Shown: in pieces, positions 820 through 41,034 of the stretch
Layout of the letters: each line of letters starts with the position of its first letter
Position numbering within the stretch: position 1 is the stretch's first letter
NCBI RefSeq assembly: GCF_013367775.1
Contig: NZ_CP055157.1
Span: forward strand, 4,166,001 to 4,230,000
Length of the DNA stretch: 64,000 nucleotides
DNA from: Microbulbifer sp. YPW1
Lineage (GTDB): Bacteria; Pseudomonadota; Gammaproteobacteria; Pseudomonadales; Cellvibrionaceae
Direction of reading: 5' to 3'
The notes under the pieces: model-generated
Databases searched by the model: none
What the model saw: only the letters and a program-made list of their open reading frames with translations
What the model was told of the DNA's origin: nothing
Translations under genes and position numbers: made by a program

Positions 820-3423
820 TCAGAAGTTATAGCTGACCCGCAGGCCCGCTGTGCGCGGTTCCGGCAAGAAGAGCTCAACGGTCTGCGGTGTGATAGCCCC
901 GCCCGGCAGGAAGCCGTAATCCACGTTGCTCAGACCGAACTTGACCTTGTCGTCATCCAGAAGGTTATCGACGTAGAACACCAGGTCGAGGCTGTCGAAC
1001 CGCACCCCACCCTGGAAATCCACCAGCCAATAGGACGGCAGCCAGGCGTTGTTGCCGCGATCCAGGTAACGCTTGGATTCATAACTGCCGATCAGCTCGG
1101 TGAAGTAGCCCGCGCCAGTGGCGAATTCACCGTCGTAGCGGATAGACAACAGCCCGGCGTGTTCGGCGGAGTTCAGGAACTGCGTGCCGGAATAGTCACC
1201 ATCCTCGGTCTGAGTCCACAGTTTGTCGAACGAACTGACGTTACCCACATCGCCTATTGTGAAGTCCTGAACCTCGGTATCGCTCAACACGTAGCTGGCG
1301 CCGAAGGTCCAGTTGGCGGACGGGCGGTAGATCGCGCTCAGCTCCATACCGCGCAGTTCACTCTCCCCTGCGTTGGCAACCGCGGCATTGGTAGTACCGG
1401 TCTGCGGGTCCGTCACAAAATGGGAGATCTGCTGATTGCTGTAATCGTACAGGTAGAAGGCACCGTTCAACTGCAGGCGGTTGTTCAGCAGATTGCTCTT
1501 GAAGCCGGTCTCGTATACCGACAGTTCTTCAGGCTTGTAATCACCACTTGAGATGTCGCCATTGCCATCGGCTGTGGACATACCGCCGGGCTTGAAGCCT
1601 TCCGCGTAGGAGGCATACACCATCAGGTTGTCCATCATCTGCCAGTCCAGGCCTACCCGCGGCACAAAGGAACTGTCTGTGCGGGCGTACGTCTGGTACT
1701 CAGCCGTCGTTGGCATGAACGTCATCGGGTCCAATACCGGGATACCCATCAGGCCATTGAATTGCGTACTCAGCGGCAAGCTGACGTATTCAATATCCTC
1801 TTCAAGGTAGCGCCCTTCCGCCGTCAAACGCCAGTTGTCCGCGAAGTTGTAGTTGATGGAGAATGCGAGAGACACGTGGTCAGTATCACGAGTCATGGGA
1901 ATGGGCAGAGGTGTAGGACCCGTCTGGTGATTCACCAGGCCAAATCCACCCATCCACTGATCGAGGTACGCATCCCAGAATTCTTTACTGACACCGTCGC
2001 GCAGCCACCACTGCTGATCCATGACGGCGTCCATGGTCTCTGTCCAGTAGAGCGCACTGGCAAGCCAATCCACCTTGCCTGCAGTGCCGGTCAAACGAAA
2101 TTCCTGACTGAACTGCTCGACATCGAAGCTGGTGTTACTGTTGGCGTTCACACCGTACTGGGTGTAATCGCCAGGGAAGCCCGGGGGAATAAACATCCCG
2201 GAACCCGGCCCCAGCGTCTCAACCGTGAAATTGGTGCGATCAAAGTCTGACTCCGTCTGGGAGTCGTTGTAATGAACGCCGGTCAGTGACAGGAATTCAA
2301 TGTTGCTGAGATTGTATTTCAGCTCCAGCGTAGAGCTCACAGCGCGCACTTCGGTACCCGCAAAGTCTTTGCCGGTCAGCGGATTGGGAGAGAGATCGAT
2401 CTCGCTTTCGCTCGCGCTACCCAGCTCGCCCACGAGCACGGCACCACAGGCCGCAGGCTGTCCAATCAAATAGCCGTAAGCCGGTGCGGATGCGCAATCT
2501 GCTGCAGTGGTCCCGGTGCCTGCCAGCGGACGAATTTCCGCATTGGGACCAACCGACCCCATCAGGGAAAAATCACCAGGAGCGGAGCCGGTGTGCAGGA
2601 CAGCGTGGCGCTGCACCACTGGGCGCTGGGAATATTCGGCCTCGCTGTACTCACTGCGCCAGTAGGCTGAAAAATCATTATTCGGCGTCCAGTAAACCGC
2701 CGCAGCAATCCCGTCAGAATCAACCGAGCCCAGGTCACCGCCGGTATTGGGGTTCTGGTAGAAGCCGTCGAACTCGGTTCTGGCCACATTCATTGACGCG
2801 GCAAGTACCCCAGGCACGATCGGCAGACTGCCACTGGCCTGGAATTTGTTGTAGCCGGCATCGGTAACGTCCATGGACAAGCGGGTTTCCACCGTATCGC
2901 CAGGGCGCTTGGTGATGTAATTGACCGCACCGGCAAAGGCAGAGCGGCCGTACACCGCACTTTGCGGCCCCTTGACCACCTCGACCCGCTCAAGGTCGAA
3001 CAGGTCCATATTCGGCCCATTGCCGCTACCGCCCGTGGTCATGGATTCCGAAGACACATCCACACCATCAACCAGCAGCGCCACGTTGGAACGACCGCGG
3101 GTACTGGAAAGTCCGCGCAGGGATATCCGGGTATCGTTGGGCATCAGGCCGGTTTCGAAATCTAGCCCGGCAGTGTAGCGGGCAACATCTTCCAGTGCCG
3201 CTATGCCCTTTTCTTCCAGCTGTGCTGCGGTCAGAACGTCCACAGCCACCGGTACGGTTTGCAATGACTCTGCGCGCTTACGCGCCGTCACTACGACTTC
3301 TTCAATCGCAAAGTTATCGCCGCGTAGCGCTTCGACTTCCCGATCCTTATCACTTTGTGCCACAGCGCCCTGCACAGCAACGCAGGTGGCGACAGCGAGA
3401 GAGAGTTGGTTCTTGGTAAACAT
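820..3423 (-). CDS. TonB-dependent outer-membrane receptor
   Basis: The product is an outer-membrane beta-barrel that would import a large ligand using TonB energy. The chosen start (3423) follows a GGAGG site and gives 867 residues beginning with a signal peptide (MFTKNQLSLAVATCVAVQG, cut near AQS); a frame extension to 3522 lacks these properties. The TonB-box/plug entry reads EEVVVTARKRAESLQTVPVA at about residues 40-60, the plug follows (LRGLSSTRGRSNVALLVDGV), and the barrel ends in LRVSYNF with the terminal Phe typical of outer-membrane proteins. Ligand cannot be read from sequence. Its promoter region shares the GATATA/TATAAC motif found elsewhere in the island, which suggests co-regulation and a role in taking up the island's substrate, possibly a tetrapyrrole. 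A siderophore or carbohydrate receptor remains possible. Confidence 0.93.
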   Translation of the reverse strand: MFTKNQLSLAVATCVAVQGAVAQSDKDREVEALRGDNFAIEEVVVTARKRAESLQTVPVAVDVLTAAQLEEKGIAALEDVARYTAGLDFETGLMPNDTRISLRGLSSTRGRSNVALLVDGVDVSSESMTTGGSGNGPNMDLFDLERVEVVKGPQSAVYGRSAFAGAVNYITKRPGDTVETRLSMDVTDAGYNKFQASGSLPIVPGVLAASMNVARTEFDGFYQNPNTGGDLGSVDSDGIAAAVYWTPNNDFSAYWRSEYSEAEYSQRPVVQRHAVLHTGSAPGDFSLMGSVGPNAEIRPLAGTGTTAADCASAPAYGYLIGQPAACGAVLVGELGSASESEIDLSPNPLTGKDFAGTEVRAVSSTLELKYNLSNIEFLSLTGVHYNDSQTESDFDRTNFTVETLGPGSGMFIPPGFPGDYTQYGVNANSNTSFDVEQFSQEFRLTGTAGKVDWLASALYWTETMDAVMDQQWWLRDGVSKEFWDAYLDQWMGGFGLVNHQTGPTPLPIPMTRDTDHVSLAFSINYNFADNWRLTAEGRYLEEDIEYVSLPLSTQFNGLMGIPVLDPMTFMPTTAEYQTYARTDSSFVPRVGLDWQMMDNLMVYASYAEGFKPGGMSTADGNGDISSGDYKPEELSVYETGFKSNLLNNRLQLNGAFYLYDYSNQQISHFVTDPQTGTTNAAVANAGESELRGMELSAIYRPSANWTFGASYVLSDTEVQDFTIGDVGNVSSFDKLWTQTEDGDYSGTQFLNSAEHAGLLSIRYDGEFATGAGYFTELIGSYESKRYLDRGNNAWLPSYWLVDFQGGVRFDSLDLVFYVDNLLDDDKVKFGLSNVDYGFLPGGAITPQTVELFLPEPRTAGLRVSYNF

Positions 3424-3536
3424 GGCCCCTCCAATATTTTTTATTCGATTACCGCTAGTCACCTGGCAAATCGGATACAGCTTCGATCGGCCATCCATTC
3501 GCGAGCGCCGGATGGCGATCACTGAAAAGACATTAT

Positions 3537-3552
3537 GTTATACTTTTATATC
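3537..3552. promoter_or_regulatory. AT-rich operator-like site upstream of the receptor
   Basis: GTTATACTTTTATATC is a near-palindrome of the form GTTATA-N4-TATATC. On the minus strand it sits between a TTGAAA and a CATAAT-like element, so it would overlap the receptor promoter. The same pattern occurs at 23059-23074 and, inverted, at 35481-35496. Confidence 0.45.
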
Positions 3553-3660
3553 TTTTCAAGATTTTTTTGAGCTTGCTGATCCAAAATACAATCTGCCGCG
3601 TACACTGCCCCGTTATGGCCCCAGTTTTGGCTTTCTTTCACCAATTTTGCGCACCATTAT

Positions 3661-4437
3661 CTAGAACTCTTCCAGCAAACGGCCCTTCCCCGTAATGCGA
3701 TCGTCAATGCCACAGGCCCGCAATGCATGCCAGACTGTTGCAATATTGATCGGGATCAGGGGTTTCTGGAGGCAGTGCTCCAGCGTCGGGAATAGATCGA
3801 GGGTAGAGAGGTTGGTACCGCATTGAATGATCGCGTCAACATCATCGCCATCAACTTCCTTCACAGCATCTATGACGTTCGGGATCGAGGTTTCTGCAAT
3901 TGCGGTAGCGGACGGCCGGTTCATTCCCTTGACCTTGACCACCTCGAAACCGATATCTGAGAAGAAACGGCGGACGTTATCGTCCCCAACCTGGGGGTAC
4001 GGCGTGATCACCGAAATGCGCTTGGCGCCGAAGCAGTTTAACGCGTCTTTGGTAGCCCCGGCGCCGGTTGTAAGCCCCAGGTCGCCAATCTGGTCGCGAA
4101 TCTCCCGCTCGAACGCGATATTCCCTTCCAGCCCACCCCAGAAAGTTTCCGCCGACATGCCCAACATGATGTGGGATACCTTGGCCGAAAGAATGTTACG
4201 AATTGATACAGGAATCTCGCCGCGCATGATGTCGAGGAAGCGCTCGAACACGGTGTTTTCGTCATCTCCACTGCGGGAGACCTCATCGGACCAGTTGCGC
4301 AACTCGATCCAGAAGCGAGAGGGATGCCAGGTCACGCCGTCTAGACGTAACTGCTGCAGGTCGTACTCGACCCCGGTGTTGGTGGAGGGAATGATGACGC
4401 CGATCTGCGCTCGGCGGGCGATTTGATAATTATCCAT
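3661..4437 (-). CDS. Maleate isomerase / Asp-Glu racemase-like protein A
   Basis: This 258-residue protein belongs to the Asp/Glu/hydantoin racemase superfamily in the maleate cis-trans isomerase/arylmalonate decarboxylase branch. It has the family start (IGVIIPSTNTGVEYD, residues 12-26) and the second active-site loop IIQCGTNLST with Cys206. The first-loop cysteine normally seen in maleate isomerases is missing: the equivalent segment is GMSAETFWGG (93-102). One cysteine only, in the second loop, resembles arylmalonate decarboxylase more than maleate isomerase, so the reaction may be decarboxylation or a one-base isomerisation of a substituted maleate. It is about 40-45% similar by eye to the paralogue at 5771-6604. 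It has its own Fnr-type promoter (4492-4505) although it lies at the end of the operon. Confidence 0.8.
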   Translation of the reverse strand: MDNYQIARRAQIGVIIPSTNTGVEYDLQQLRLDGVTWHPSRFWIELRNWSDEVSRSGDDENTVFERFLDIMRGEIPVSIRNILSAKVSHIMLGMSAETFWGGLEGNIAFEREIRDQIGDLGLTTGAGATKDALNCFGAKRISVITPYPQVGDDNVRRFFSDIGFEVVKVKGMNRPSATAIAETSIPNVIDAVKEVDGDDVDAIIQCGTNLSTLDLFPTLEHCLQKPLIPINIATVWHALRACGIDDRITGKGRLLEEF

Positions 4438-4463
4438 ATTGACTCCCGGATGTACTTCCAGAA

Positions 4464-4510: not shown

Positions 4511-5719
4511 TCAGGTGACCGCTTGCGAAGAGACAGGCTCTGCAGTCTCTGCCCGCGGAGTGCGTAACATAAAGGCGATCAACAGCAGCAACCCCATCAG
4601 GGCTGCGCCAAGGTAGTAAGGGGAATGGACACCAATACCCGCAAAGGCTGCGCCGGTCAGCGCCGTACCCAGCCCCCGCCCCAGGGTACCCAGTGCATTG
4701 TAAACCCCCATCACGGCCCCCCGATTACCGGCCACCGCTTCCTTCGAGGTCAGTGACTGCATCGAGGTCAACACCAGCGCCGCACCCACCGCCTGCGCCA
4801 CCAGCGCTGCCGCTACCGCGGGCACACTCGCAATTGAGCCCGCCAGGGTCACCAGAATCACGGAGATACCAAATACCACGGCACCGGCCCGCATCAGGCG
4901 GCGCTCACCGAAGGCGCGGGTCAGCGGCCCGATAAGCCCGCCCTGCACGATCACCATGGCAATGCCTGCGGCCAGCAGTACCGGCACCAGGTCCTTGGGC
5001 CCGTGGGCAATGTCCGTGGCATCCGCCCAGATGGGGAACACCGACTCGACAAACCCCGCGGCCAGGTTGTACACCAGAACCGCTGCCAGCAACAGGCAGA
5101 GACTGCGCCGGCCCCCAATCCATGACAGCACTTCCTTCGAGGACGGCGCAGAGCGAGGTTGATCTCCGCCGTCAGGCAGACTTTCCTTCAGGAAAAATAT
5201 CACCACTAGCAGTGCAGCCAGGGACAAACAGCCGGACACCATCGCCGGCAATTGCAGATTGGCATCGGCGAAGCTGTCTCCCGCGAGATAGCCCCCCAGA
5301 GCGGGGCCGACGATGAAACTGATCCCGAACGCCGCCCCCAACATACCCATGGCCTTGGCGCGGTCCTGTTCGGTGGTCACGTCGGCCACATAGGCCTGGG
5401 CAACCGACAGGTTTCCGGCCATCAAGCCACTGAACAGCCTGGACACCGCCACCATCCATACAGCGGTGGCAAACCCCAACAGGACGTAGCCGAAAACGGC
5501 ACCGGCAAGGCTGATCATCAGGATCGGCTTGCGCCCGTAACGGTCACTGAGACGCCCCCACACCGGGGTGGAAAAAAACATCCCGATCACATACAGCGCC
5601 ATACAGAAGGTCGCCATACCGGGGCTCGCCCCCAGCTGCAGCGCGTAATACGCGAGGATCGGCAACATGATGGCAAAGCCGATCATGTCGAGCAGAACAA
5701 TAAACACGGCGATCATCAT
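4511..5719 (-). CDS. MFS transporter
   Basis: A 402-residue major facilitator with about 12 hydrophobic segments. The MFS motif A is present after helix 2 (GRLSDRYGRKP, about residues 58-68). An AGGAGG site precedes the tandem ATGATG start. The overall look is of the TetA/DHA1 drug-proton antiporter type. It sits between two maleate-isomerase-like genes with gaps of about 50-70 bp, so it probably moves a pathway substrate or intermediate, in or out, rather than a drug; that is inference from context. A second MFS gene, of different sequence, lies at 15003. Confidence 0.85.
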   Translation of the reverse strand: MMIAVFIVLLDMIGFAIMLPILAYYALQLGASPGMATFCMALYVIGMFFSTPVWGRLSDRYGRKPILMISLAGAVFGYVLLGFATAVWMVAVSRLFSGLMAGNLSVAQAYVADVTTEQDRAKAMGMLGAAFGISFIVGPALGGYLAGDSFADANLQLPAMVSGCLSLAALLVVIFFLKESLPDGGDQPRSAPSSKEVLSWIGGRRSLCLLLAAVLVYNLAAGFVESVFPIWADATDIAHGPKDLVPVLLAAGIAMVIVQGGLIGPLTRAFGERRLMRAGAVVFGISVILVTLAGSIASVPAVAAALVAQAVGAALVLTSMQSLTSKEAVAGNRGAVMGVYNALGTLGRGLGTALTGAAFAGIGVHSPYYLGAALMGLLLLIAFMLRTPRAETAEPVSSQAVT

Positions 5720-5770: not shown

Positions 5771-6604
5771 TCAGTGCTCTTCCAGCAACCAGCCCATATT
5801 GTCGAAGCGATCGTGAATACCGCAGCTGCGCAGGGCGTGCCAGCAGGTGGCCACATTGATCGGCAGCACCGGTTTCTGCAGCATTTTTTCCATCGCCGGA
5901 AATACCCCCAGCGTGGAGAGATTGGTCCCCACCTGCACGATGGCATCCACATCGTCGCCGTCGATTTCGCGCACGATATCCAGCACCTGCGGCTCCGGCA
6001 CCAGCGCGATGGCATCGTGGGCGTTGGCACAGCGCAGGCCGACCAGGTGCTTGATACGGTAGCCCGCATCCTCGAAAAACAGGCGCACGTTCTTGTCCCC
6101 TACCGGCTGGTAAGGCGTCAGAATGGAAAGTGTCTTGCCCGAGCCCTCGGGCAGGCCCAGTGCATCGAGTGCCGCAATCACTGCATTGGCTCCGGTAGTC
6201 AGCCCGGTGTCTTCACCCACCAGTTGCTGGATGCGGTCCACAAACCCGTCATTGCCCTGAATCCCGCCCCAGAAGGTTTCCGCGGACATACCCATCATTA
6301 CGTGATCGGGTTTACAGGTCATCAGGCTCTCGATCGAGTCGCCGATGGTCTCGCGCAGCCGTTCCAGGAAGCGCATAAAGTTGGCATCGTCGCTGAGATC
6401 GGGGTGATCGATCATAAATCGGGTGGTATGCCAGGTAACCCCACGTGGCAACAGACGCTGGCAGTCATACTCCACCGAGGTATTGGTGGAGGGAATTACC
6501 ACGCCGATCTTGGCGCGGTGACCAATATAGTTATCGCGATGACCGTTAGTCAGCTGCGAACGCTCACGGGTTTTTGACAGATCGATCTGGGTTGGAAATG
6601 ACAT
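5771..6604 (-). CDS. Maleate isomerase / Asp-Glu racemase-like protein B
   Basis: A 277-residue paralogue of the protein at 3661-4437, sharing IGVVIPSTNTSVEYD (33-47), MGMSAETFWGG (104-114), the ITPY/LTPY region and the WHALRSCGIHDRF end. It carries an N-terminal extension of about 25 residues. Notably both canonical cysteines of the superfamily are absent: the first loop has GMSAET and the second reads IVQVGTNLST, with Val225 where protein A has Cys206. It is therefore unlikely to act by the usual two-cysteine mechanism alone. It could be a partner subunit of protein A, or use other residues. Context (amidase, FAD monooxygenase) suggests a substituted maleate or maleamate ligand. Confidence 0.78.
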   Translation of the reverse strand: MSFPTQIDLSKTRERSQLTNGHRDNYIGHRAKIGVVIPSTNTSVEYDCQRLLPRGVTWHTTRFMIDHPDLSDDANFMRFLERLRETIGDSIESLMTCKPDHVMMGMSAETFWGGIQGNDGFVDRIQQLVGEDTGLTTGANAVIAALDALGLPEGSGKTLSILTPYQPVGDKNVRLFFEDAGYRIKHLVGLRCANAHDAIALVPEPQVLDIVREIDGDDVDAIVQVGTNLSTLGVFPAMEKMLQKPVLPINVATCWHALRSCGIHDRFDNMGWLLEEH

Positions 6605-6672: not shown

Positions 6673-7887
6673 TCACTGAACCGCCAGACTCTCGCGCACG
6701 CAATTGATCATTGACCGCTCCAACAGGAAGGCCCGCGCCCGCTCCGGGTCCGCGGCGGTTTCCATCAGCATCTGCTGACGCTTGCGCTGGATATCGGGAT
6801 CGCGCGCCTCCATCAGTTTTTTGTTTTCGATGGTATGGCGCTGCACAAACTGCACCGCGAGCTCGCGGCGCTGCCGGTCATAGAGGGCAAAAGCCGCTTG
6901 CGGATCCGCGCCTTCCTGAATGACTGCGCGCAGCTTTTCTGCCAGATTGAACGCATCGTGCAGTCCACCGTTCATCCCCATGCCGCCCAGGGGATTGTTG
7001 ATATGGCAGGCATCCCCCACCAGCAACGCACGCCCCTGCACATAGGTCTCGGCCACACGCTGGTTGACCGCGTAAATACTGCGGTGGTGGACGTCGTAGT
7101 CGACACCGCGATCGTGTAAGCGCTTAAGCCGCGACTGCACAAATTCGTCGGAAAGGTAGTAGGCTTCCTCTTCGGCGCTGGCGGGAAATACTGGCACCAG
7201 TACCCGCCAGAGCTTGTCGGTGCGCAGGATTACGCACCACTCTTCCGGGTCCGACACATAGTTTACGTAGGAGAAATCCTCGAATACTTCCTCGAATGGA
7301 AAGCTGGTGCTGACCACGAGGAATTTTTCATCGTAGGTAAACCCCATAAAGCCGATGCCGGAACTTTTGCGCACCACGCTGCGCGCACCCTCGGCGCCAA
7401 TCAGGTAGCTACCCCGCAACTGCTGTTCCGCGCCGTCACTGCTTACGGTTGCGGTGACGCCGTCGGCGTCCTGCGCATAACGCAGCAGCTCGCAGCCGAA
7501 GCGCACTTCCGCGCAGTCGTAGTCTTGCAGAGCCTCACACACAAAACGGGTCAGCTCGTACTGTTCCAGTTGCAGGCGGAAAGGAAACCGGGTTTCGTCG
7601 GCAATCTGTGCCATATCGAAAGTGGCCACTTCTCCGGTAGCGCGATCCCGATACTGGTAGCGGTCGGCATGGAGCCCGCGCGCGAGCATTTTTTCGATAA
7701 TTCCATCACCCAGATCCGCGATCATTTCCAACGACGGCGGGTGAAAAGTTGAGGCGCGCAGATCAATGGGGAGACTTTCGCATTTTTCCAACAGCCGCAC
7801 AGGAATACCCTGCTTGGCAAGCGACAGAGCCAGCACGCAGCCACTAGGGCCGGCACCAGCGATAATCACAGGTTGCTGTGTAGACAT
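6673..7887 (-). CDS. FAD-dependent (group A) monooxygenase
   Basis: A 404-residue single-component flavoprotein hydroxylase of the PHBH fold. The N-terminal dinucleotide motif GAGPSG is at 11-16, the central DG-type motif appears as IGAEGARSVVRK, and the FAD-ribityl GD motif is GDACHINNPLGGMGMNGG at about residue 295. NAD(P)H-driven hydroxylation of an aromatic or heteroaromatic ring (here possibly a pyrrole-derived ring) is the family role. It lies between the isochorismatase-like amidase and maleate-isomerase-like protein B with gaps of 46 and 68 bp, so it is in the same operon. The arrangement recalls nicotinate nicC clusters, but no dihydroxypyridine dioxygenase is present. Confidence 0.88.
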   Translation of the reverse strand: MSTQQPVIIAGAGPSGCVLALSLAKQGIPVRLLEKCESLPIDLRASTFHPPSLEMIADLGDGIIEKMLARGLHADRYQYRDRATGEVATFDMAQIADETRFPFRLQLEQYELTRFVCEALQDYDCAEVRFGCELLRYAQDADGVTATVSSDGAEQQLRGSYLIGAEGARSVVRKSSGIGFMGFTYDEKFLVVSTSFPFEEVFEDFSYVNYVSDPEEWCVILRTDKLWRVLVPVFPASAEEEAYYLSDEFVQSRLKRLHDRGVDYDVHHRSIYAVNQRVAETYVQGRALLVGDACHINNPLGGMGMNGGLHDAFNLAEKLRAVIQEGADPQAAFALYDRQRRELAVQFVQRHTIENKKLMEARDPDIQRKRQQMLMETAADPERARAFLLERSMINCVRESLAVQ

Positions 7888-7933: not shown

Positions 7934-8554
7934 TCAGACAGTTTCAGCCCGGTTTTCAGGCTGGAATTCTGCTAACAGTCCCAACACGTCCGATAGCGCC
8001 ATTACGTCGGCGTACTTGGCATGCATATCGAATAAATTTGCCCGGTGCGCTTCTGCATTGCGGTCACCCACCGCTTCTTCTGGCACCACTACCGGAAAGT
8101 CGTACTGCAGGCCGTCCACCACCGTTGCGCGCACACAGCCACTGGTAGTGAGACCGGTGACCACCAGCGAGTCCACGCCCTGCTCCCGCAACCAGCTGTC
8201 GAGGTTGGTGCGGTGGAAACTGCTCGCCCACTGCTTGCTGATCACCGGCTCGCCGTCGCGCGGCGCCAAACGCGGGTCGATCTGTACCCACTCCGAATCT
8301 GGCGTGAGCAGGTTGAGGTGTTCGATCCTGTCGCGAAATACCCGCGCCTCGCGATCGTGGTGGTACACCACCGTGGTATACACCACCGGCAATCCCAGGG
8401 CGCGGAAGCGATCCAGCAAAACCCGGTTGGCCTCAACCACGTCAGGACAATCTGTACCGAGTGGACAGCGACTGCTGGTAAAACCCACGACCATATCCAC
8501 CAGCAGCAGCGCCGGGCGCTGGCCGAGACCGAGACTGTTTCGCTCAAGATCCAT
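7934..8554 (-). CDS. Isochorismatase-family amidohydrolase (maleamate amidase-like)
   Basis: A 206-residue cysteine hydrolase with a complete catalytic triad: Asp20 (LLVDMVVGF), Lys107 (ISKQWASSF) and Cys140 (TGLTTSGCVRATVVDG). The TTSGCVRAT signature and the KxxxSSF loop are those of the N-carbamoylsarcosine/maleamate amidohydrolase branch, which release ammonia from a linear amide. In this operon the natural reading is hydrolysis of maleamate or an alkyl-maleamate to the corresponding maleate, feeding the neighbouring maleate-isomerase-like proteins. Substrate identity is inferred from family and context only. Confidence 0.85.
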   Translation of the reverse strand: MDLERNSLGLGQRPALLLVDMVVGFTSSRCPLGTDCPDVVEANRVLLDRFRALGLPVVYTTVVYHHDREARVFRDRIEHLNLLTPDSEWVQIDPRLAPRDGEPVISKQWASSFHRTNLDSWLREQGVDSLVVTGLTTSGCVRATVVDGLQYDFPVVVPEEAVGDRNAEAHRANLFDMHAKYADVMALSDVLGLLAEFQPENRAETV

Positions 8555-8603: not shown

Positions 8604-9437
8604 TCAGCCTGCTTTGGCGACGTCGAGAAAAAATGGGCGCAGCAAGTCGGCAACCGCAGCGGGCTGGCGATCGCATACGTAAGTACCCGCGTCCTGCGGC
8701 AGGGTCGCGGCCCTGCCCTCCGACAACAGTCGCACCGACGGGGAAACCGCCGAGCGCAAAACATCCTGACCGCCGGCAAACACCAGTGCAGGACAATGAA
8801 TTACCGCCATCTGTCCGGCAACATCCTGCTCTACCACGGCGCGATAGGACGCCTCGTAATAATCGCCACAGGCAAAGGCGGAAAGGGTCTCCCGCAAGCT
8901 GAGGGCAAGCTCCGCTTCCGGGTCTTTGCCCCGCAACCGCTGCCACATGAGAAGCCAGTGATTGCCATCGGCATCCGCCGGTATGGTTGCCGCAGCCTTG
9001 GGCAGCGCGGCTTTCTGTTCATCGCTCAACAGGGTTGGGCCACTGAGCGCCAGCGCACGCACAAATGCGGGCTGGTCATACGCAAGCTGCACCGCGATTG
9101 CGGCACCGGTGTGATGACCAAAAACCAGTGCCGGGCGATCGAATTGCCCGCTTACTGCGGTGTAGATGGCTTTTGCAAAGCCGGCAATGGACACCACACC
9201 CGGCAGCGGATCACTGCTGCCAAATCCGGGGGTGTCCACCGCCAGTACAAAGAAATCCCGCGCAAGCAGCGGCATCAACCGAACGTACATTGCAGAGCAA
9301 CTGGGCGTCTGGTGCAGTAACAGTAAGAGTGGTCGGTCTTCATCACCGCAGCTGCGAAAATGCAACTGGATAGATTCGCCGTCCACTTCCGCATCGAGAT
9401 AGCCGCGGCGAATGGTGCCGCGCTGCACCGCATTCAC
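8604..9437 (-). CDS. Alpha/beta-hydrolase fold protein with altered triad
   Basis: The start is placed at a GTG overlapping the stop of the upstream aldehyde dehydrogenase (translational coupling), giving 277 residues; a longer frame would lie inside that gene. The fold is recognisable (LLLLLHQTPSCSAMY oxyanion region at 38-51, DTPGFGSSDP, late GGQD acid). The nucleophile elbow, however, reads GHHTG (107-111), so the usual Ser is His109. The C-terminal position where the catalytic His is expected reads GTYVCDRQP. A normal esterase mechanism is therefore doubtful. It may be a lyase, a C-C cleaving enzyme or a cofactor-free oxygenase-like protein. In nicotinate clusters the equivalent position is occupied by the deformylase NicD, which keeps a Ser. 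Confidence 0.75.
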   Translation of the reverse strand: MNAVQRGTIRRGYLDAEVDGESIQLHFRSCGDEDRPLLLLLHQTPSCSAMYVRLMPLLARDFFVLAVDTPGFGSSDPLPGVVSIAGFAKAIYTAVSGQFDRPALVFGHHTGAAIAVQLAYDQPAFVRALALSGPTLLSDEQKAALPKAAATIPADADGNHWLLMWQRLRGKDPEAELALSLRETLSAFACGDYYEASYRAVVEQDVAGQMAVIHCPALVFAGGQDVLRSAVSPSVRLLSEGRAATLPQDAGTYVCDRQPAAVADLLRPFFLDVAKAG

Positions 9438-14803: not shown

Positions 14804-14875
14804 TTTGTAATCCACCTCCAGGACTAGCTGCTCCCCGCCCAATGCGGAAGCACCGCCCAGTTATCCTCATGCATT

Positions 14876-27704: not shown

Positions 27705-27726
27705 ACTGTTTTCTCCCCGTCCATCA

Positions 27727-33346: not shown

Positions 33347-33993
33347 GGTAAAACTCCTTCCACACTTTCTTCCAGCGGTGCATAGGCCCAGCGGTACTCT
33401 TCGCGCCGTTTCTGCTCGAATGCATTGATTTCCTTGTGCTGCTGCAGGGTCAGCGCGATGGAGTCGAGGCCATTCAACAGCAGGTAGCGCGCGCTCTCAT
33501 CCAGCGAAAATGACCACTGCAGGTCTCCGCATTGCACCAGACATGCCTGTAAATCGATGGTGATCCTGTTTTCCTGCGGGTCCTGCTGCACATGCTCCGC
33601 CAGTAGCGCAATGTCGCCTTCATCGAGACGAACCGGCAGCACGCCATTGCGGATACAGTTGGTGTGAAAGATGGCCCCAAAGCCACTGGCAATGACCGCG
33701 CGAATACCGTACTCCGCCAACGCCCACACCGCGTGCTCCCGGGAGGAGCCGCAACCGAAATTGTCCAGCGCGAGAATGACGGATGCACCCTGGTATTCAG
33801 GCTGGTTCAATACAAATGCCGGATTGATTTCACGGCTGCCAGGCAAGGTGTAGCGCCAGCCGGCAAACAGACCTTCACCGAGGCCGCGCTTGGAAACCCG
33901 CTTCATTTCCCGCGACGGAATAATCGCATCGGTGTCGATGTTGCGTCGCAGCAGCGGCGCCGCGATACCGGTGTGTTTTACAAAGGGCTTCAT
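33343..33993 (-). CDS. Aconitase-family hydratase small subunit (LeuD-like)
   Basis: A 216-residue swivel-domain subunit with RRNIDTDAIIPSREMK (16-31), the NFGCGSSREHA loop (about 78-88) that binds substrate carboxylate, and FGAIFHTNCIRNG. It pairs with the large subunit encoded immediately upstream (4-bp overlap). The true leucine-pathway isomerase is possible, but neither leuA nor leuB is near, and the setting favours a (de)hydratase for an alkylmaleate or citraconate-like acid, as with dimethylmaleate hydratase of nicotinate fermenters. Confidence 0.9.
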   Translation of the reverse strand: MKPFVKHTGIAAPLLRRNIDTDAIIPSREMKRVSKRGLGEGLFAGWRYTLPGSREINPAFVLNQPEYQGASVILALDNFGCGSSREHAVWALAEYGIRAVIASGFGAIFHTNCIRNGVLPVRLDEGDIALLAEHVQQDPQENRITIDLQACLVQCGDLQWSFSLDESARYLLLNGLDSIALTLQQHKEINAFEQKRREEYRWAYAPLEESVEGVLP

Positions 33994-35426
33994 GCAATCA
34001 GTGACTCGCTGTTGACCAGTGTCTCGGCGGAAGTGATATACCCGGCGACTGCCGACGCCGCCACGGTGGACGGGCTGGCCAGATGGGTACGGGTATTGGG
34101 ACCCTGACGCCCCTCGAAGTTGCGATTGGTGCTGGAAATCACGCGCTGGTATTCACCGAAGGTTTCACCCCCGGCGTAAAAGCACATGGAGCAGCCGGAG
34201 TCCCGCCATTCAAAACCCGCATCGGTAAAAATCCGATCCAGCCCTTCTTGCTCCGCCTGTCGTTTTACCCGGCGCGACCCGGGCACCACCACACCACGCA
34301 CGCCGGGCGCAATATGTCGCCCGCGCACCACCGCCGCGGCGGCACGCAGGTCACTGATACGGCTGTTGGTACAGGAGCCGATAAATGCCGCATTCACTGC
34401 AATATCCGCAATCGCCTGCCCGGGCTCCAATGCCTGGTAATCGAGCGCGCGCTGGGCGGCTTCCCGGCGGTGGGGCTCGGTAAATGCCGCTGGGTCGGGG
34501 ACACGCTGATGCAGCCCGACCACCTGTTCCGGGCTGGTGCCCCAGGTCACCATGGGCTCAATGGCGCTGCCGTCGATAATCAGTTCGCGATCAAATTCCG
34601 CGTTGTCATCACTGCGCAACGTGCGCCAGTAGCTGCACGCGTCCTCCCAGTGCTGGCCTTTGGGCGCAAAATCCCGGGCCGCGAAATAGGATTCGACTTT
34701 TTCATCCGGGGCGATGATCGCGGTGAACGCAGAAAACTCCACCGCCATATTGCACAGGGTCAACCGGGCCTCGGCGGACAACTGGCTGATGACCGAACCG
34801 CTGAACTCCACTGCAAACCCCGCCCCGCCATTGGTGCCAAAGCGGGCAATCAGGTGCAGTATCAGGTCCTTGGCCGTCACACCGGGGCGCAGTCGACCAT
34901 CGACAACCACGCGCATGTTCTTCGGCTTGCGCACCCGCAGCGTGCCGGTGGCGAGGGCGTGTTCGGCCTCACTGGACCCGATCCCCCAGGCCAGGGCACC
35001 AATGCCACCGAGGCTGCAGGTGTGGCTGTCCGGGCACACCAGGGACAGACCAGGTAGCACCAGCCCCTGCTCGGGAGAAATCACATGGACAATCCCCTGA
35101 TCTTCGTCATCCACGTCGAACAGGCGGATATTCGCGGCGCGGGTCTCACTGCGGGTGGCGACAATAAAGTCGGTACCGGAGGGCATCAGTGTTTTGTCGC
35201 CGCGACCGGGGAAGGTATCGACAATATGATCCATGGTGCAGAACACCCGGCGCGCATCCCTAACCGCGTAACCGGCAGAGTGCAGACTCTGCAGCGCAAT
35301 CGACCCGGTTCTCTCGTGCAGAAAGACCCGGTCGAGATAGATCAGAGTTTCGCCACTGTCGAGATCACACACGGTGTGATCCGACCACAACTTGTCGAAC
35401 AGCGTACTTGCACCGGATATCGCCAT
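33990..35426 (-). CDS. Aconitase-family hydratase large subunit (LeuC-like)
   Basis: A 478-residue Fe-S dehydratase. The 4Fe-4S ligands are Cys352 (FIGSCTNSRISDL), Cys412 and Cys415 (SGCSMCFYAG). The early signature VCPDSHTCSLGGIGALAWG (130-148) and the late SSTNRNFEGRQGPNTRTHLA are also complete. Together with the small subunit it should interconvert a cis-unsaturated dicarboxylate and its hydroxy acid. It is the first gene of a unit that runs to 26883, with the AT-rich operator-like site 55-70 bp upstream. Confidence 0.92.
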   Translation of the reverse strand: MAISGASTLFDKLWSDHTVCDLDSGETLIYLDRVFLHERTGSIALQSLHSAGYAVRDARRVFCTMDHIVDTFPGRGDKTLMPSGTDFIVATRSETRAANIRLFDVDDEDQGIVHVISPEQGLVLPGLSLVCPDSHTCSLGGIGALAWGIGSSEAEHALATGTLRVRKPKNMRVVVDGRLRPGVTAKDLILHLIARFGTNGGAGFAVEFSGSVISQLSAEARLTLCNMAVEFSAFTAIIAPDEKVESYFAARDFAPKGQHWEDACSYWRTLRSDDNAEFDRELIIDGSAIEPMVTWGTSPEQVVGLHQRVPDPAAFTEPHRREAAQRALDYQALEPGQAIADIAVNAAFIGSCTNSRISDLRAAAAVVRGRHIAPGVRGVVVPGSRRVKRQAEQEGLDRIFTDAGFEWRDSGCSMCFYAGGETFGEYQRVISSTNRNFEGRQGPNTRTHLASPSTVAASAVAGYITSAETLVNSESLIA

Positions 35427-35496: not shown

Positions 35497-35528
35497 ATTA
35501 GATCTTTGAGAACAGTGATTTGCCAACA

Positions 35529-36413
35529 ATGAGCATTACCGAGACAAAAATCGCACTTGGCCCCTGCACCATCGCCACCCTGGCCAGCCCCAATGCAGCG
35601 GTACTGGTGGACCAGTACTGCAGCCACCTGCAGTGCCAGGTGCTGGCCAGCGAAACGCTTACCGCGGCGGCAGCCGGGCAATGGGGCTGCCCCGGCCTCG
35701 CCGGCACACGCTACTGGCTGCTCGGCAATATCCACGGGCGGCCGTGGTTGCGTATTGTTGAAGACGCGCAAGCACAGCCAATCGCGCCCCTTTCCCGCGC
35801 GGGCTGGATGTCACTGGAAGTGCTGGTGGAAGATCCGGATGCGCTGGCGGACACCCTCGCGTCGTCCCCCTTCGAGGTACTGCGCCCTGCCGCCGACCTG
35901 GAGCTCAGCGACAAGATCCGTGCGGTGCAGGTACAGGGGCCCTGCGGTGAACTGCTGTATCTGACCCGGATCGCCGACGAAGTGCCGCCGTTCCAGCTGC
36001 CACAGGCGCAGTGCGCCGTCGACCACCTGTTTATTCCGGTGCTGGCGAGCCGCGACCGCAGCGCTGCCCTCACCCTTTACGAGGAGCTGGCGCAGCACCA
36101 AGGTCTCAGCTTCGACACCAAGGTTACGGTGGTCAACCAGCTGCGCGGACTGCCACTGGAACAACAACACCCTCTCGCCACCCTGCAACTGGCAGACAAC
36201 ACCCTGATCGAAATCGACCAGCTCGGCGACCTTGCCGAGGCACCTCGTCAGGACAATTCCCTGGGGGGTGGTATCGCCATGGTCAGCTTTGAGATTGACC
36301 GTCTGCCAGCGGGAGCGAAGGCGCACTGCCATGGTGAAGCGCCCTACCAGGGGCGGCGCAGCTGCACGATTTACGGCCACGACGGCGAACGCATCGAACT
36401 GATCGAGCGCTGA
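35529..36413 (+). CDS. VOC/glyoxalase-fold protein
   Basis: The ATG at 35529 is preferred to a TTG 9 bp earlier; 294 residues. Two or more beta-alpha-beta modules are suggested by LEVLVEDPDALADTLASS followed by GPCGELLYLTRI, then VDHLFIPVLASRDRSAALTLYEEL and SLGGGIAMVSFEIDRLP. The vicinal oxygen chelate fold covers extradiol dioxygenases, lyases, epimerases and binding proteins. Metal ligands cannot be assigned by eye. As the first gene of the plus-strand block ending with the RCCR homologue, it could be a ring-processing or C-C cleaving enzyme. Confidence 0.62.
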   Translation: MSITETKIALGPCTIATLASPNAAVLVDQYCSHLQCQVLASETLTAAAAGQWGCPGLAGTRYWLLGNIHGRPWLRIVEDAQAQPIAPLSRAGWMSLEVLVEDPDALADTLASSPFEVLRPAADLELSDKIRAVQVQGPCGELLYLTRIADEVPPFQLPQAQCAVDHLFIPVLASRDRSAALTLYEELAQHQGLSFDTKVTVVNQLRGLPLEQQHPLATLQLADNTLIEIDQLGDLAEAPRQDNSLGGGIAMVSFEIDRLPAGAKAHCHGEAPYQGRRSCTIYGHDGERIELIER

Positions 36414-36479
36414 TTAACGCGCACTCGCGAATCAATATCGCACCCGAACAAACAATAAGACTGTAAAAAAGAGATTCCT

Positions 36480-37253
36480 ATGCCCTACCGCACTATCCGA
36501 GGACAAATCCGCTACACCAGCCGCAAACCCGACCGCCTGGGTCAGGAGCGCGGTCGCGAGTTTTTCAGTATTACCCAGCAGGCGGACGGCAATGACGTAT
36601 TGCAGGCCCACTGCGAAATCGACGACGCCCCCAGCGTCACCCGCGATATTGTGCAGGCACTGCGACACTCGGATTCGGCGCCGCTGGACTGCTCGGTGCG
36701 CCTCACCGTGGGCGACCGCTTCGAGGGCACCGGCTGGTTCCGCTTTACCGACAAAGTGGCGGAGTGTGAAACCTTCAACCATCGCGACGGGCGCATCAGC
36801 CAACGCATCGAACTGGACGCACCGGTGCAGTGGATGCAGTGCCACCCGATCGCCGGCGACGGCCTGCTGATGCGGCTTTACGATCTCTCAAAAGGCCCCG
36901 GCAAACAGCATTTCCCGCACATGATGCTGTCGTCACCGGATCACCGCGGTGCCACCGGCCCGCTGCTGTTCAAGATGGGCTTTTCCCTGGTGTATGTGGG
37001 CGAAACAGACATCACTGTGGAAGCCGGCACCTTCCGCGCGCGCCATTTCCAGGTGACCGACACCGCCGCCGACCTGCCGGAAGAGCACCCGCCCTACAAC
37101 GTGTGGTGCACCGCCGATGACGACTGCCTGCTGCTGCGCGCCGAGGTAGAGGGATATATGCTGACCCGCTACGAACTGGCGGACGTGCAGTATTTCGAAT
37201 CCCGCGATGGGGTGACCAGCGCACAACAGCCAGCGACGGAAGCGGCTATCTGA
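36480..37253 (+). CDS. Uncharacterised protein (beta-rich)
   Basis: A 257-residue protein without signal peptide or membrane segment. The pattern is of repeated beta strands, for example CSVRLTVGDRFEGTGWFRF, VQWMQCHPIAGDGLLMRLYD and DITVEAGTFRARHFQV. It recalls DUF3108-like or DUF6134-like barrels but I am not certain. It lies 66 bp after the VOC gene and just before an Fnr-type promoter. A ligand-binding or isomerase role in the pathway is possible; no catalytic motif is visible. Confidence 0.6.
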   Translation: MPYRTIRGQIRYTSRKPDRLGQERGREFFSITQQADGNDVLQAHCEIDDAPSVTRDIVQALRHSDSAPLDCSVRLTVGDRFEGTGWFRFTDKVAECETFNHRDGRISQRIELDAPVQWMQCHPIAGDGLLMRLYDLSKGPGKQHFPHMMLSSPDHRGATGPLLFKMGFSLVYVGETDITVEAGTFRARHFQVTDTAADLPEEHPPYNVWCTADDDCLLLRAEVEGYMLTRYELADVQYFESRDGVTSAQQPATEAAI

Positions 37254-37273
37254 CGCCAACCCCGGGGCCGGAA

Positions 37274-37314
37274 TTGACAATGGTCAATGCGGCCCCTCCC
37301 GCCTCGCCTAGTAT
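37274..37314 (+). promoter_or_regulatory. Fnr-type box with -10 element
   Basis: TTGACAATGGTCAA (37274-37287) has perfectly symmetric half-sites. TAGTAT (37309-37314) is centred exactly 31 bp downstream of the box centre. This is the cleanest class II arrangement in the window; the next start codon is at 37352. Confidence 0.72.
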
Positions 37315-37351
37315 CGGATGGGATAACCAAACCACCCGGCGGGAGACAATA

Positions 37352-38218
37352 ATGAAAATACTGATACTGGGCATGGGCCATGTGGGCAAGGCCCTCAGCA
37401 GCCGGCTCCGCGAGCAAGGTCACCAGATCATCGGCACCACCACCACCCCGGAAAAAGTCGACGCACTGAAACCGTTTGCCGATGAAGTCGTGGTACTGAA
37501 AGGCCACGAATCCGAGAAGGTCGCGGAGGCTGCACAAGGGGCCGACCTGATCGTGGTCACCGTCGCACCCAACGTAAGAAATACCCGCACCCCGGAAGAG
37601 CGCCACCAGCACTACCGCCAGGCTTTAGTCGAAACCTGCGCAAGCGCGGCCGCCAGCTGTGAGCGATTGATCTTCCTGTCGTCTTTCTCTGTGTACGGCG
37701 ACGGTGGTGAAGGCGAAGCCCCCATCTCTGAAGAAACCCCCACCAGCAACCACGAGGAACCCTCCTCCCTGTACTACCAGCAGGCGGAAAAGGAAATTCT
37801 TTCCCGCAGCGGGGGCTGTGTATTGCGCTTCCCCGATATGTACGGCGCACCGGGTGACCTGAGCTTCCCCGAGCGGGTAAAGCTGGCGCACTCCTATTTC
37901 GGCGGCAAGGCGCTGTTCGGTGCCGATGCCCTGCTCTACGCAATTCACTTCGAAGACGTGGTCAGCGCTGTGGCCCACGCCATTGAGCACGACCTCAGCG
38001 GCACCTTCAATGTATGTGACAACGAACGTATCCCCGCCACCAATGCGCGCGTGTTCGATGCCATCTGCGACGCAGAGGGCTTGACCCGGCTGGAATTTCT
38101 CAACCAGATCAAGGCACCCAACCGCAGGATCTCGGCAGACAAGATCTACAACACCGGTTACCGCGTTGCCCACGGCGATCCCAATGCCGCTTACCTGCAA
38201 CAGGGCGAACCCGCCTGA
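37352..38218 (+). CDS. NAD(P)-binding epimerase/dehydratase-like protein (extended SDR)
   Basis: The ATG at 37352 follows GGGAG and gives 288 residues; a TTG 78 bp upstream lies within the Fnr box and is not a start. The N-terminal MKILILGMGHVGKAL is a Rossmann entry, VYGDGGEGE and YYQQAEKEIL (Tyr-x4-Lys) resemble the SDR active site. Overall it looks like YeeZ-type or atypical extended SDRs. It immediately precedes the RCCR homologue (63 bp) under the same Fnr-type promoter, so a reductive or epimerising step on the same intermediate is plausible. Confidence 0.82.
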   Translation: MKILILGMGHVGKALSSRLREQGHQIIGTTTTPEKVDALKPFADEVVVLKGHESEKVAEAAQGADLIVVTVAPNVRNTRTPEERHQHYRQALVETCASAAASCERLIFLSSFSVYGDGGEGEAPISEETPTSNHEEPSSLYYQQAEKEILSRSGGCVLRFPDMYGAPGDLSFPERVKLAHSYFGGKALFGADALLYAIHFEDVVSAVAHAIEHDLSGTFNVCDNERIPATNARVFDAICDAEGLTRLEFLNQIKAPNRRISADKIYNTGYRVAHGDPNAAYLQQGEPA

Positions 38219-38281: not shown

Positions 38282-39091
38282 ATGCATTCTGATACGAAAA
38301 CCATCGACCAGTTTCTGTCTGAAAACCCCAACGTGGACGTCAGCAAAGCGTGGGAGCGCTGCTGGGGTATTCTCACCGATGTTAAGCAGACCATTGCCAG
38401 CCGCTTTACCGGACTGGAACTGGAACCCTCCTGCCACGACCGCGAGTACTACACCTCTCCCAACGGCGAATTTGAAGGCTCCTTCCAGGCCTGGAGCGGC
38501 GGTGACTGCGAGTGGCTGGTGAACTCCTGGCTGGGCAATCGCAAGGCCAGCATCCTCGATATGAACGCCACCGCGTACCTGGGCCAGAAGACCGATGTAC
38601 CGCACTTCGTAATGGTCTTCGGCACCATCCCCAAGCTGTTTTTCTATTTCGACTTTATGCCGCGCCGCAACCTGCTGGTGGACAGTAACTACCTCGACAA
38701 GTATTACGCGCCCATCAATGACGAATACCTGGCCCTGCGCGGTCACAAGAACTTCCAGTGGTCCGTGAGCCACGGTCCGTACATGCGCGCACTGATCAAC
38801 CCGTCCACCCAGAGCCTGATGGGCGACCTGAACGACGAGAATATCGACATCCTCGAAAACTATGCCCGCAGCATGCTCAATCACTGGCTGCGCTGGTACG
38901 ACGAAGCCGAACCGCTGGCAGAAAGCGAGCGCGCTACCCTGCAGCGCGACGATCACCAACTGCGCCGCCTGTGTTACGAGCGCGACCCGATGAACAAACT
39001 GGCAACCAAGGTATTCGGGGAAGAAGGTGTGCAGCAGATGCTGACCCTGCGTATGGGTGAGGGTCAGATGCGCCGCGCGTTAGAAGTGTGA
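38282..39091 (+). CDS. Red chlorophyll catabolite reductase (RCCR) homologue
   Basis: A 269-residue protein. By comparison with plant RCCR as I know it, the order and spacing of conserved blocks agree: PHFVM (107-111, plant PNFVV), FDFMPRRNLLVDSNYLDKYY (123-142, plant LDLPHRKDLVLNPDYLKEYY), SHGPYMRALINPS (163-175), ENYARSMLNHWLRW, RDDHQLRRLCYERDP (222-236, plant RDKSFRRKS) and FGEEG (245-249, plant FGEE). RCCR reduces the ring-opened red chlorophyll catabolite to a primary fluorescent catabolite with ferredoxin electrons. It has no plastid or export signal, so it acts in the cytoplasm. It closes an Fnr-controlled pair of genes. Substrate could be another bilin. Confidence 0.82.
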   Translation: MHSDTKTIDQFLSENPNVDVSKAWERCWGILTDVKQTIASRFTGLELEPSCHDREYYTSPNGEFEGSFQAWSGGDCEWLVNSWLGNRKASILDMNATAYLGQKTDVPHFVMVFGTIPKLFFYFDFMPRRNLLVDSNYLDKYYAPINDEYLALRGHKNFQWSVSHGPYMRALINPSTQSLMGDLNDENIDILENYARSMLNHWLRWYDEAEPLAESERATLQRDDHQLRRLCYERDPMNKLATKVFGEEGVQQMLTLRMGEGQMRRALEV

Positions 39092-39859: not shown

Positions 39860-39959
39860 TCTTTATACTCCCAGGCAGGGGGTTAAATTTATCATGCTTA
39901 CACGGTACGCATGGTCAGAAGTTCCAGATCATGGATACCCCAACTGCTGATCGCATGAA

Positions 39960-40001
39960 TTGACAATTATCAATCCGCGGCCCCGAGTGGCTCGCTAACC
40001 T
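39960..40001 (+). promoter_or_regulatory. Fnr-type box with -10 element
   Basis: TTGACAATTATCAA (39960-39973), the closest match to the Fnr consensus in the window, with TAACCT (39996-40001) centred about 32 bp downstream. It precedes the chlorophyllase-like gene at 40054. Confidence 0.68.
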
Positions 40002-40053
40002 CAAATCAGAAAGCCATCCCGCATTTTCAGATAACGATACCAGGCAAATCTCC

Positions 40054-41034
40054 ATGTACATGACCCGCTGTCTTTTCGATGCCTTCAAAGTAGATGCCCT
40101 GCAGCCTCCTTACGATACAGGCATCGCCAGGATCTACTACCCCGCCCAGTACGGGGACTCCTTTGAAGAGCGCAATACCGGTGCCGTACCCGTGGATGAA
40201 TCGCTGGCACCCTGCCCGGTACTGATCCTGTTTCACGGTATCAATATCGACCCCGCCGGCTACCGGTGGCTGGCGGAATCCCTGGCGGCCTCCGGCATTG
40301 TCACGGTCACCTACCAGCTGGTCGCCGAAGAAATGCCCGGCTACGTAGCCGCTACGCCCGGGATCGAACTGCAATCACTGACCCCAGACCAGTTTGGCAA
40401 GCAGCCCTCGGCACTCGCCATGCCCGCCATCCTGACCATGCTGGAACGCCTCAACGGCAGCGGGTTACTGGCCGGCAAGCTCGACTTGGATCGCCTGGCA
40501 TTTGGCGGCCACAGTGCCGGTGGCACCCTCGCCCTGTTGAATGCCAACCCAAGCTGGTTCCCGGGGTTGCGTGCGGTCTTTTCCTATGGCGCCCACACCG
40601 GTGCCTCAACCCTCCTCGGCTGGCCGGAAGAAACCCTGCTGCCTGTGAGCGAAGACATCCCGGTATTGTTGATTGGCGGCGAGCAGGACGGCTGTATCGC
40701 CCACAGTGCCCACCGCTATGGATCCAGCAATGCCAGCGCCACCGCCCGCATCGAACAGACTTTTGGCCAGGCGGTTCCCGAAAACGGCGGCAACAATACC
40801 CTGCTGCTGCTGAATGATGCCAATCACTTTTCGATCTGTTTCCCCGCAGACGATACCTGCGGGCGCAGCTACATCGACCTTCCCGCGGGATCCGGGCAAG
40901 GGCGCGATACTGCCGGCCAGGCCATTGGCAGTTTTCTCAAGGGGTTTCTCTGTGATGATCAGGAGGCCAGAACGGCCTTTCAGGAGCTGAGTGGCGCAAA
41001 CCACGAGCAGATCAGCAAATTGCTGCGCAAGTAA
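40054..41034 (+). CDS. Chlorophyllase-like alpha/beta hydrolase
   Basis: A 326-residue hydrolase with a complete triad: Ser154 in GGHSAGG (151-157), Asp212 (GGEQDGC) and His258 (NDANHFS). The PVLILFHGINIDPAGYRWLAESLAASG segment (55-81) and the position of the nucleophile elbow match the chlorophyllase/PET-hydrolase-like group, where chlorophyllase carries GHSRGG. Chlorophyllase removes phytol from chlorophyll. No signal peptide is seen, so action would be cytoplasmic. The gene is under an Fnr-type promoter and next to the RCCR gene, which raises the chance of a chlorophyll-related role; other ester substrates are possible. Confidence 0.75.
   Translation: MYMTRCLFDAFKVDALQPPYDTGIARIYYPAQYGDSFEERNTGAVPVDESLAPCPVLILFHGINIDPAGYRWLAESLAASGIVTVTYQLVAEEMPGYVAATPGIELQSLTPDQFGKQPSALAMPAILTMLERLNGSGLLAGKLDLDRLAFGGHSAGGTLALLNANPSWFPGLRAVFSYGAHTGASTLLGWPEETLLPVSEDIPVLLIGGEQDGCIAHSAHRYGSSNASATARIEQTFGQAVPENGGNNTLLLLNDANHFSICFPADDTCGRSYIDLPAGSGQGRDTAGQAIGSFLKGFLCDDQEARTAFQELSGANHEQISKLLRK

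Follow-up and report, generated by a model that had tools for sequence, protein, structure and literature searches.

The 64,000-nucleotide window analysed here (G000:C1:4166001-4230000, G000 being the 4.58-Mb, one-contig genome of the marine bacterium Microbulbifer sp. YPW1) carries the downstream part of an island of about 66 kb (G000:C1:4141264 to about 4207034), of which about 25 kb lie upstream of the window. The island codes for three proteins of the family formed by RCCR and the ferredoxin-dependent bilin reductases (FDBR), called RCCR1, RCCR2 and RCCR3. Its function in the catabolism of bilin-type tetrapyrroles is well supported by these three proteins, a conserved Rieske oxygenase, a protein with the BFA1/DUF3598 fold (u323), a search of the host that found no heme oxygenase and the co-occurrence of RCCR and u323. 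We consider it reasonably probable that external chlorophyll-derived tetrapyrroles are degraded (pheophorbide- or chlorophyllide-like compounds, or their linear bilins).

RCCR1 (38282..39091) had been recognised as an RCCR homologue in the initial annotation, and this is confirmed: it scores 55.6 bits with PF06405 (cut-off 24.9) and matches Arabidopsis RCCR (3agb_A) with E=2.9e-11. It has 431 relatives, one of which, from Microbulbifer sp., shares 94% identity with it. RCCR2, which is encoded 5.6 kb upstream of the window, also passes the PF06405 cut-off (50 bits). RCCR3 (12227..12973) alone has no Pfam match, and an 8-member profile of it found no match among PDB sequences. These empty results, and that from NCBIfam, are overridden by three others. 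Profile-profile comparison with the alignment of RCCR-type proteins gave prob 99.0 and E=6.1e-18 over 224 columns (prob 0.1 for an unrelated control); 23 of the 36 family members match PF06405 at E<=1 (best 5.4e-5); and the AlphaFold model (pLDDT 95.5) has Arabidopsis RCCR as its top structural match in the PDB. RCCR3 shares the fold of the RCCR/FDBR superfamily, as had been proposed, and the possibility that it is an unrelated protein was rejected. Its Asp96 and Asp222 are kept in 36/36 relatives and correspond to the catalytic pair Asp-99/Asp-219 of GtPEBB (mapped by eye through alignments). The RCCR-type profile matches Arabidopsis RCCR with 1.8e-19 and GtPebB with 1.1e-4. In a rough tree, plant RCCR clusters with bacterial RCCR1 (support 85/93) on a long branch, a placement that is only a hint because the tree contains two very long rows entered as fragments. 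Cyanobacterial RCCR-like genes were reported in a 2009 paper (PMC2716323).

Within the order, PF06405 is rare. Of 390 genomes in 142 genera, 12 genomes from 7 genera contain it, against 0/14 controls, and a search of the same 390 genomes for u323 returned exactly these 12. The probability of this co-occurrence is 4.6e-23 if genomes are assumed to be independent, a value that is too small because they are related; in the own genus, three genomes have both and seven have neither. For the other 11 genomes, 40 stretches around RCCR genes were searched with 60 proteins from the own genome. One genome (G229) has almost the entire island at 53-98% identity (mem223 was not found there). Another (G383) has a compact group consisting of the genes for two maleate-isomerase-like proteins (AMD1 and AMD2), a short-chain dehydrogenase/reductase (SDR), the Rieske oxygenase, an RCCR-type protein, a serine hydrolase (ABH2) and u323. 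An epimerase-like gene, an SDR gene and RCCR1 are together in six genomes. In two genomes (G068 and G174), few island genes are close to the RCCR genes and u323 is far away, so that there is co-occurrence without proximity. A region in G174 (G174:C2:2336870-2338447) has u323 in three pieces, adjoining a stop-containing partial match to RCCR, probably a decayed copy of the core. The gene for a PuuE-like imidase is present in 12/12 RCCR genomes and in 13/378 others; it is linked to RCCR, not exclusive to it.

The initial annotation had suggested looking for the same gene set in other marine genomes, and a core was found in three phyla. We searched for u323 by pattern in GTDB species genomes and counted its neighbours, within the fetched stretch, with models built from the island and thresholds that we set. 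This gave 76 loci from Gammaproteobacteria, Chloroflexi and Actinobacteria; the "gamma" group (34 loci) comprises all loci that are not chloroflexal or actinobacterial by record title. The core that recurs in all three consists of the Rieske oxygenase, RCCR-family reductases, the serine hydrolase, the SDR and u323. All 24 actinobacterial loci with full flanks have an RCCR-type gene, RCCR3, Rieske, ABH2, SDR, a carbon-nitrogen hydrolase and AMD, mostly in the order CNh2-RCCR-ABH2-Rieske-RCCR3-u323-SDR-AMD2 (CNh2 being a double carbon-nitrogen hydrolase; read from tables, uncounted), and LeuC and PuuE-like genes were found in none of these 24. Near u323 in the 11 chloroflexal loci, we found RCCR3 (11/11), Rieske (10/11), ABH2 (10/11), SDR (8/11), LeuC (9/11) and HMG-CoA-lyase-like genes (10/11), and no AMD or PuuE-like genes. 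The gamma group has any RCCR-family gene in 29/34, Rieske in 23/34 and ABH2 in 21/34 loci; among actinobacterial loci, Rieske is near u323 in 30/31. Over threshold, 7/76 loci have no RCCR-family match and 13/76 no Rieske match, six of the latter being from Microbulbifer (L070-L075). One locus (L115), in a record titled as a Bifidobacterium breve metagenome-assembled genome, has the actinobacterial version of the core, with a u323 that is 49% identical, like records of the acAMD type; the label looks wrong.

The protein u323 (323 aa) has no Pfam or NCBIfam match. It is a double beta-barrel of the BFA1/DUF3598 fold and a candidate pigment carrier; it shares this fold with the BFA1/DUF3598 proteins, but is only 8-12% identical to them and occurs in a different gene context. 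A protein without family assignment (L112:5458-6315, with relatives in 8/10 chloroflexal loci) has the u323 motif YHGPDxxGxG (found by eye), so that several carriers with this fold may be encoded in chloroflexal operons.

Two further plant families had been named in the initial annotation, a chlorophyllase (ABH2) and a NOL/NYC1-like protein (the core SDR encoded at 17122). ABH2 scores only 15.2 bits with Chlorophyllase (PF07224, cut-off 26). At E<=0.1, 12 of its 19 relatives match Chlorophyllase (best 1e-7) and 16 match PETase, and the top PDB matches of its profile are polyester hydrolases. The chlorophyllase label is not supported at the family level. The SDR matches only generic SDR models in Pfam and NCBIfam, and the names NYC1 and NOL are absent among the 120 listed of its 6242 relatives; the NOL/NYC1 label is not supported by these matches. 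As to tetrapyrrole breakdown in general, bilin-type catabolism stands, specificity for chlorophyll is what we infer, and two of the four named plant families lack support at the family level.

The genes of the island, with Pfam and NCBIfam matches from a scan of the window proteins, are as follows (window positions unless a contig is given).
G000:C1:4141264-4142442: Rieske oxygenase, upstream of the window
820..3522, minus strand: TonB-dependent receptor, candidate for large-pigment uptake (PF00593, 130.8 bits; PF07715)
3661..4437, minus strand: AMD1, AMDase/maleate-isomerase-like (PF17645, 62.5 bits)
4511..5719, minus strand: MFS transporter (PF07690)
5771..6604, minus strand: AMD2, maleate-isomerase-like (PF17645)
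6673..7887, minus strand: FADmo, FAD-dependent monooxygenase (PF01494, 203 bits)
7934..8554, minus strand: ISO2, isochorismatase-type hydrolase, candidate maleamate amidase (PF00857, 134.8 bits)
8604..9629, minus strand: ABH1, alpha/beta hydrolase (PF00561; longest open frame, true start probably internal)
9434..10876, minus strand: ALDH2, aldehyde dehydrogenase (PF00171)
10883..12163, minus strand: ACADmo, acyl-CoA-dehydrogenase fold, dehydrogenase or flavin monooxygenase (PF02771, PF02770; HsaA, PigA and FadE16 models all below cut-off)
12227..12973, minus strand: RCCR3, RCCR/bilin-reductase fold
13082..14842, minus strand: CNh2, double carbon-nitrogen hydrolase (PF00795, two stretches)
15003..16328, plus strand: MFS3 transporter (PF07690)
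17122..17949, minus strand: SDR of the conserved core (PF00106, 140 bits), conserved beside Rieske/RCCR genes
18040..18684, plus strand: u214, conserved protein without NCBIfam match
18827..20278, plus strand: rubredoxin/rubredoxin-reductase fusion, candidate electron donor (PF00301, PF07992, PF18113)
20391..21362, plus strand: u323, conserved, candidate pigment carrier
21352..21885, plus strand: flavin reductase (PF01613)
22030..22989, minus strand: HMGL2, HMG-CoA-lyase-like (PF00682; NF004283, 284 bits, above its cut-off of 246)
23126..24337, plus strand: CoA-transferase family III (PF02515, 381.6 bits; start by inspection)
24411..25100, plus strand: Crp/Fnr-type regulator (PF13545, PF00027)
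26883..27824, minus strand: enoyl-CoA hydratase family (PF00378)
27727..29091, minus strand: amidase (PF01425; AtzE-like models below cut-off)
29120..30520, minus strand: PaaK-like CoA ligase (PF14535)
30598..33346, minus strand: two MmgE/PrpD-family proteins (PF03972)
33343..35426, minus strand: LeuD- and LeuC-like hydratase (PF00694, PF00330)
35520..38218, plus strand: VOC297, u257 and the NAD-epimerase-like gene, one unit with RCCR1 (in six other genomes, the epimerase-like gene is found next to RCCR1 or to its SDR)
38282..39091, plus strand: RCCR1, RCC-reductase family
40054..41034, plus strand: ABH2, PETase/cutinase-like serine hydrolase of the conserved core

The initial annotation had already placed at these positions the TonB receptor, both AMDase/maleate-isomerase-like proteins, the FAD monooxygenase, the isochorismatase-type hydrolase, the aldehyde dehydrogenase, the acyl-CoA-dehydrogenase-like protein, the double carbon-nitrogen hydrolase, the HMG-CoA-lyase-like protein, the CoA-transferase III, the amidase, the MmgE/PrpD pair and LeuC/LeuD, and the family models agree. 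Its claim of shared operons is matched by operon-like spacing in three blocks: 3661-14842 on the minus strand (gaps of 6-108 nt, one overlap), 26883-35426 and 35520-39091. The island is built partly as two paralogous sets. Upstream of the window, family scans identified a CitE-like protein, three PuuE-type hydrolases of the polysaccharide-deacetylase fold, an isochorismatase-type hydrolase, a second double carbon-nitrogen hydrolase, RCCR2, a methylisocitrate-lyase-like enzyme, an HMG-CoA-lyase-like protein (HMGL) and a CoA-transferase; the assignments of CoA-transferases a and b, an acyl-CoA dehydrogenase, GntR, GST, both SDRs, MFS1 and ALDH1 come from their translations, without family scan.

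The downstream end of the island is flanked by an RtcB-family ligase gene (41282-42490) and a tRNA-Gln gene (43113-43190). In G229, the RtcB gene is at the opposite end, which makes a tRNA-side insertion or an inversion possible. Further downstream (44947-63308), the minus strand encodes three giant proteins of 1118, 2385 and 2556 aa, in which fn3/Ig-like repeats and calcium-binding RTX repeats occur; an IS200-like transposase adjoins them at 63348.

A lower pathway via maleimides had been proposed in the initial annotation. It is plausible and is strengthened by the PuuE-family imidase-like and maleamidase-like genes upstream of the window. AMD2 matches solved maleate isomerases (2xed, 2.2e-9; 4fq5, 3.9e-7), and by this sequence match it is a candidate maleate cis-trans isomerase. 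ISO1, an isochorismatase-type, maleamidase-like protein, matches 4l07, a maleamate amidase from Pseudomonas putida S16, with 1.2e-26. For the PuuE-like protein, a match with 1.3e-20 was obtained to PuuE allantoinase, the substrate of which has been termed a small cyclic imide (PMC3084791). In 5/10 chloroflexal loci, the PuuE-like gene is replaced by one for a hydrolase of the dihydropyrimidinase (hydantoinase)/allantoinase type (below model cut-offs), a family that, judging from reference titles in PMC9863593, includes imidases acting on maleimide. The LeuCD, CoA-transferase, HMGL and methylisocitrate-lyase-like enzymes would fit a conversion of alkylmaleate via alkylmalate to lyase products.

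From the observed gene families, folds, co-occurrence and gene order, we predict the substrate and the following reactions. The TonB receptor, together with MFS transporters, would take up the pigment. Of its side chains, an ester may be hydrolysed by ABH2 and a carbonyl reduced by the SDR. The Rieske oxygenase would open the macrocycle, as plant PAO does. The bilin so formed would be reduced by the RCCR-type reductases and RCCR3, to which the rubredoxin/rubredoxin-reductase fusion would supply electrons; u323 would act as carrier of the hydrophobic intermediate. Oxygenases of the flavin and acyl-CoA-dehydrogenase types may subsequently cleave the bilin to alkylmaleimides, which are monopyrrole imides, to be processed by PuuE-like imidases, isochorismatase-type maleamate amidases and either the maleate isomerase or the LeuCD hydratase. 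CoA-transferase and HMGL/methylisocitrate-lyase-like enzymes would finally yield central metabolites. It is tempting to speculate that this is a complete aerobic pathway from chlorophyll-derived tetrapyrroles to central metabolites, present in heterotrophs of three phyla around one core, with plant PAO/RCCR as a truncated relative; this wider proposal is a tentative one.

In favour of a chlorophyll-type substrate, the RCCR-type profile matches RCCR better than GtPebB (see above), and the reductases accompany a Rieske oxygenase, just as RCCR works with PAO. Two sources of pigment within the host were rejected. A supply by a heme oxygenase of the host is one, since PF01126 matched nothing in the own genome; it was not found in 12/16 cluster genomes (own included) and found in 4/16. 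Turnover of own photosystems is the other, since the photosynthetic reaction centre was found in 0/16 cluster genomes, with a control that did match.

Several points weigh against a chlorophyll-type substrate and the proposed route. The 20 core Rieske proteins all have the Rieske domain (PF00355), but the C-terminal domain of PaO (PF08417) was found in 0/20 at E<=1, and the PAO family label was rejected. These proteins are of the VanA type (VanA_C in 20/20, with weak KshA_C matches in 17/20), and their nearest PDB relatives are SxtDIOX and NdmA. The Rieske gene of the own genome is about 44 kb away from u323. At the position of GtPEBB Asp-99/RCCR Glu154, 21 of the 22 RCCR-type proteins have Ala and one has Val, whereas the Asp291 position is kept in 22/22 RCCR-type and 13/13 RCCR1 proteins; of these two carboxylates with a role in Arabidopsis RCCR, only one is retained. 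An RCCR-type gene over threshold is near u323 in only 3/11 chloroflexal loci. The imidase is present without RCCR in 13 genomes, and ISO1 fits N-carbamoylsarcosine amidohydrolase (7.7e-26) nearly as well as 4l07. Chlorophyllase and NOL labels are not supported, and the activities assigned to the island enzymes are all predicted from sequence. Stay-Green dechelatase was found in 0/16 genomes, a result that is uninformative, as no control matched either.

Alternatively, the substrate might be a heme-derived or algal bilin (biliverdin, bilirubin, phycobilins), with the Rieske oxygenase modifying or cleaving the linear bilin without any ring opening. External bilins, e.g. phycobilins, are possible substrates. 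We nevertheless regard this alternative as unlikely: the RCCR-type and RCCR1 profiles match RCCR far better than bilin reductases, no heme oxygenase was found in 12/16 cluster genomes (own included) and no conserved Rieske oxygenase is known from bilin metabolism.

Still less probable is a non-tetrapyrrole substrate (steroid-like, aromatic or N-heterocyclic) with a re-used RCCR fold. The VanA-type Rieske proteins with their weak KshA_C matches, the SDR, ACAD/HsaA-like and flavin-reductase genes, which are known from sterol degradation, and the missing Glu154-type carboxylate would fit such a substrate. This is countered by three proteins sharing a fold that, in the match lists, is represented by characterised proteins acting on tetrapyrroles, by the constant association of u323 with PF06405 in the 390 genomes, and by the scanned window genes, among which no family of ring-cleaving extradiol dioxygenases was seen.

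That the upper genes merely destroy phototoxic chlorins, with the lower hydrolases and lyases serving other compounds and being neighbours by chance, is very improbable: the plant PAO/RCCR route is regarded as detoxification and the imidase occurs without RCCR in 13/378 genomes, but the island also contains lyase genes and genes for uptake (TonB, MFS), every RCCR genome has the imidase, and chloroflexal core loci have LeuC (9/11) and HMGL (10/11). RCC itself has been described as phototoxic (PMC2716323).

Among the closest known systems, the plant PAO/RCCR (phyllobilin) pathway likewise pairs an RCCR-family reductase with a Rieske oxygenase and includes an SDR and a serine hydrolase. The island differs by its VanA-type Rieske protein without PaO domain, the loss of the Glu154-type carboxylate, two or three RCCR-family proteins, the u323 carrier, a carbon-nitrogen hydrolase, a lower pathway and an organisation in bacterial operons. 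The ferredoxin-dependent bilin reductases (PebA, PebB, PcyA, HY2) share the fold and the Asp96/Asp222 pair with RCCR3, but identity in structural matches is only about 15-17%, the gene context is different and heme oxygenase was not found in most of the cluster genomes (12/16). Pre-PcyA clusters of non-photosynthetic bacteria also place a bilin-reductase-fold gene in a conserved heterotroph cluster, typically with heme oxygenase, V4R, Fe-S and globin genes; RCCR-related sequences served as an outgroup in that study (Rockwell et al., PMC10151467). The island has, instead, Rieske, RCCR, SDR and hydrolase genes, and PF01126 was found in 4/16 of its genomes, the own genome not being among them. 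With the maleamate pathway of nicotinate/nicotine degradation, which uses an isochorismatase-type amidase and a maleate isomerase, the island shares these two families, to which it adds imidase-like, LeuCD, CoA-transferase and lyase genes, supposedly for substituted maleates.

We know of no bacterial gene set that is shown to mineralise chlorophyll. The initial annotation likewise knew of no characterised bacterial pathway of this layout, and no bacterial chlorophyll-catabolic gene cluster was among the top matches listed in the open-licence PMC full-text literature. We rate the island as a new bacterial form of a PAO/RCCR-type pathway, with chlorophyll-derived compounds as its predicted substrate. 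Because much of the core recurs in very distant bacteria, the island may represent an undescribed microbial route for recycling green pigment. About a billion tons of chlorophyll are turned over yearly (PMC12930011). If our reading is correct, candidates for cloning are available from genera that include named strains (Microbulbifer, Parahaliea, Litorivivens, Nocardia, Actinomadura), u323 together with PF06405 would be a presence/absence marker, and each step would be a testable prediction. It would also bear on the origin of plant RCCR and would provide target genes for metagenomic surveys of blooms, sediments and litter.

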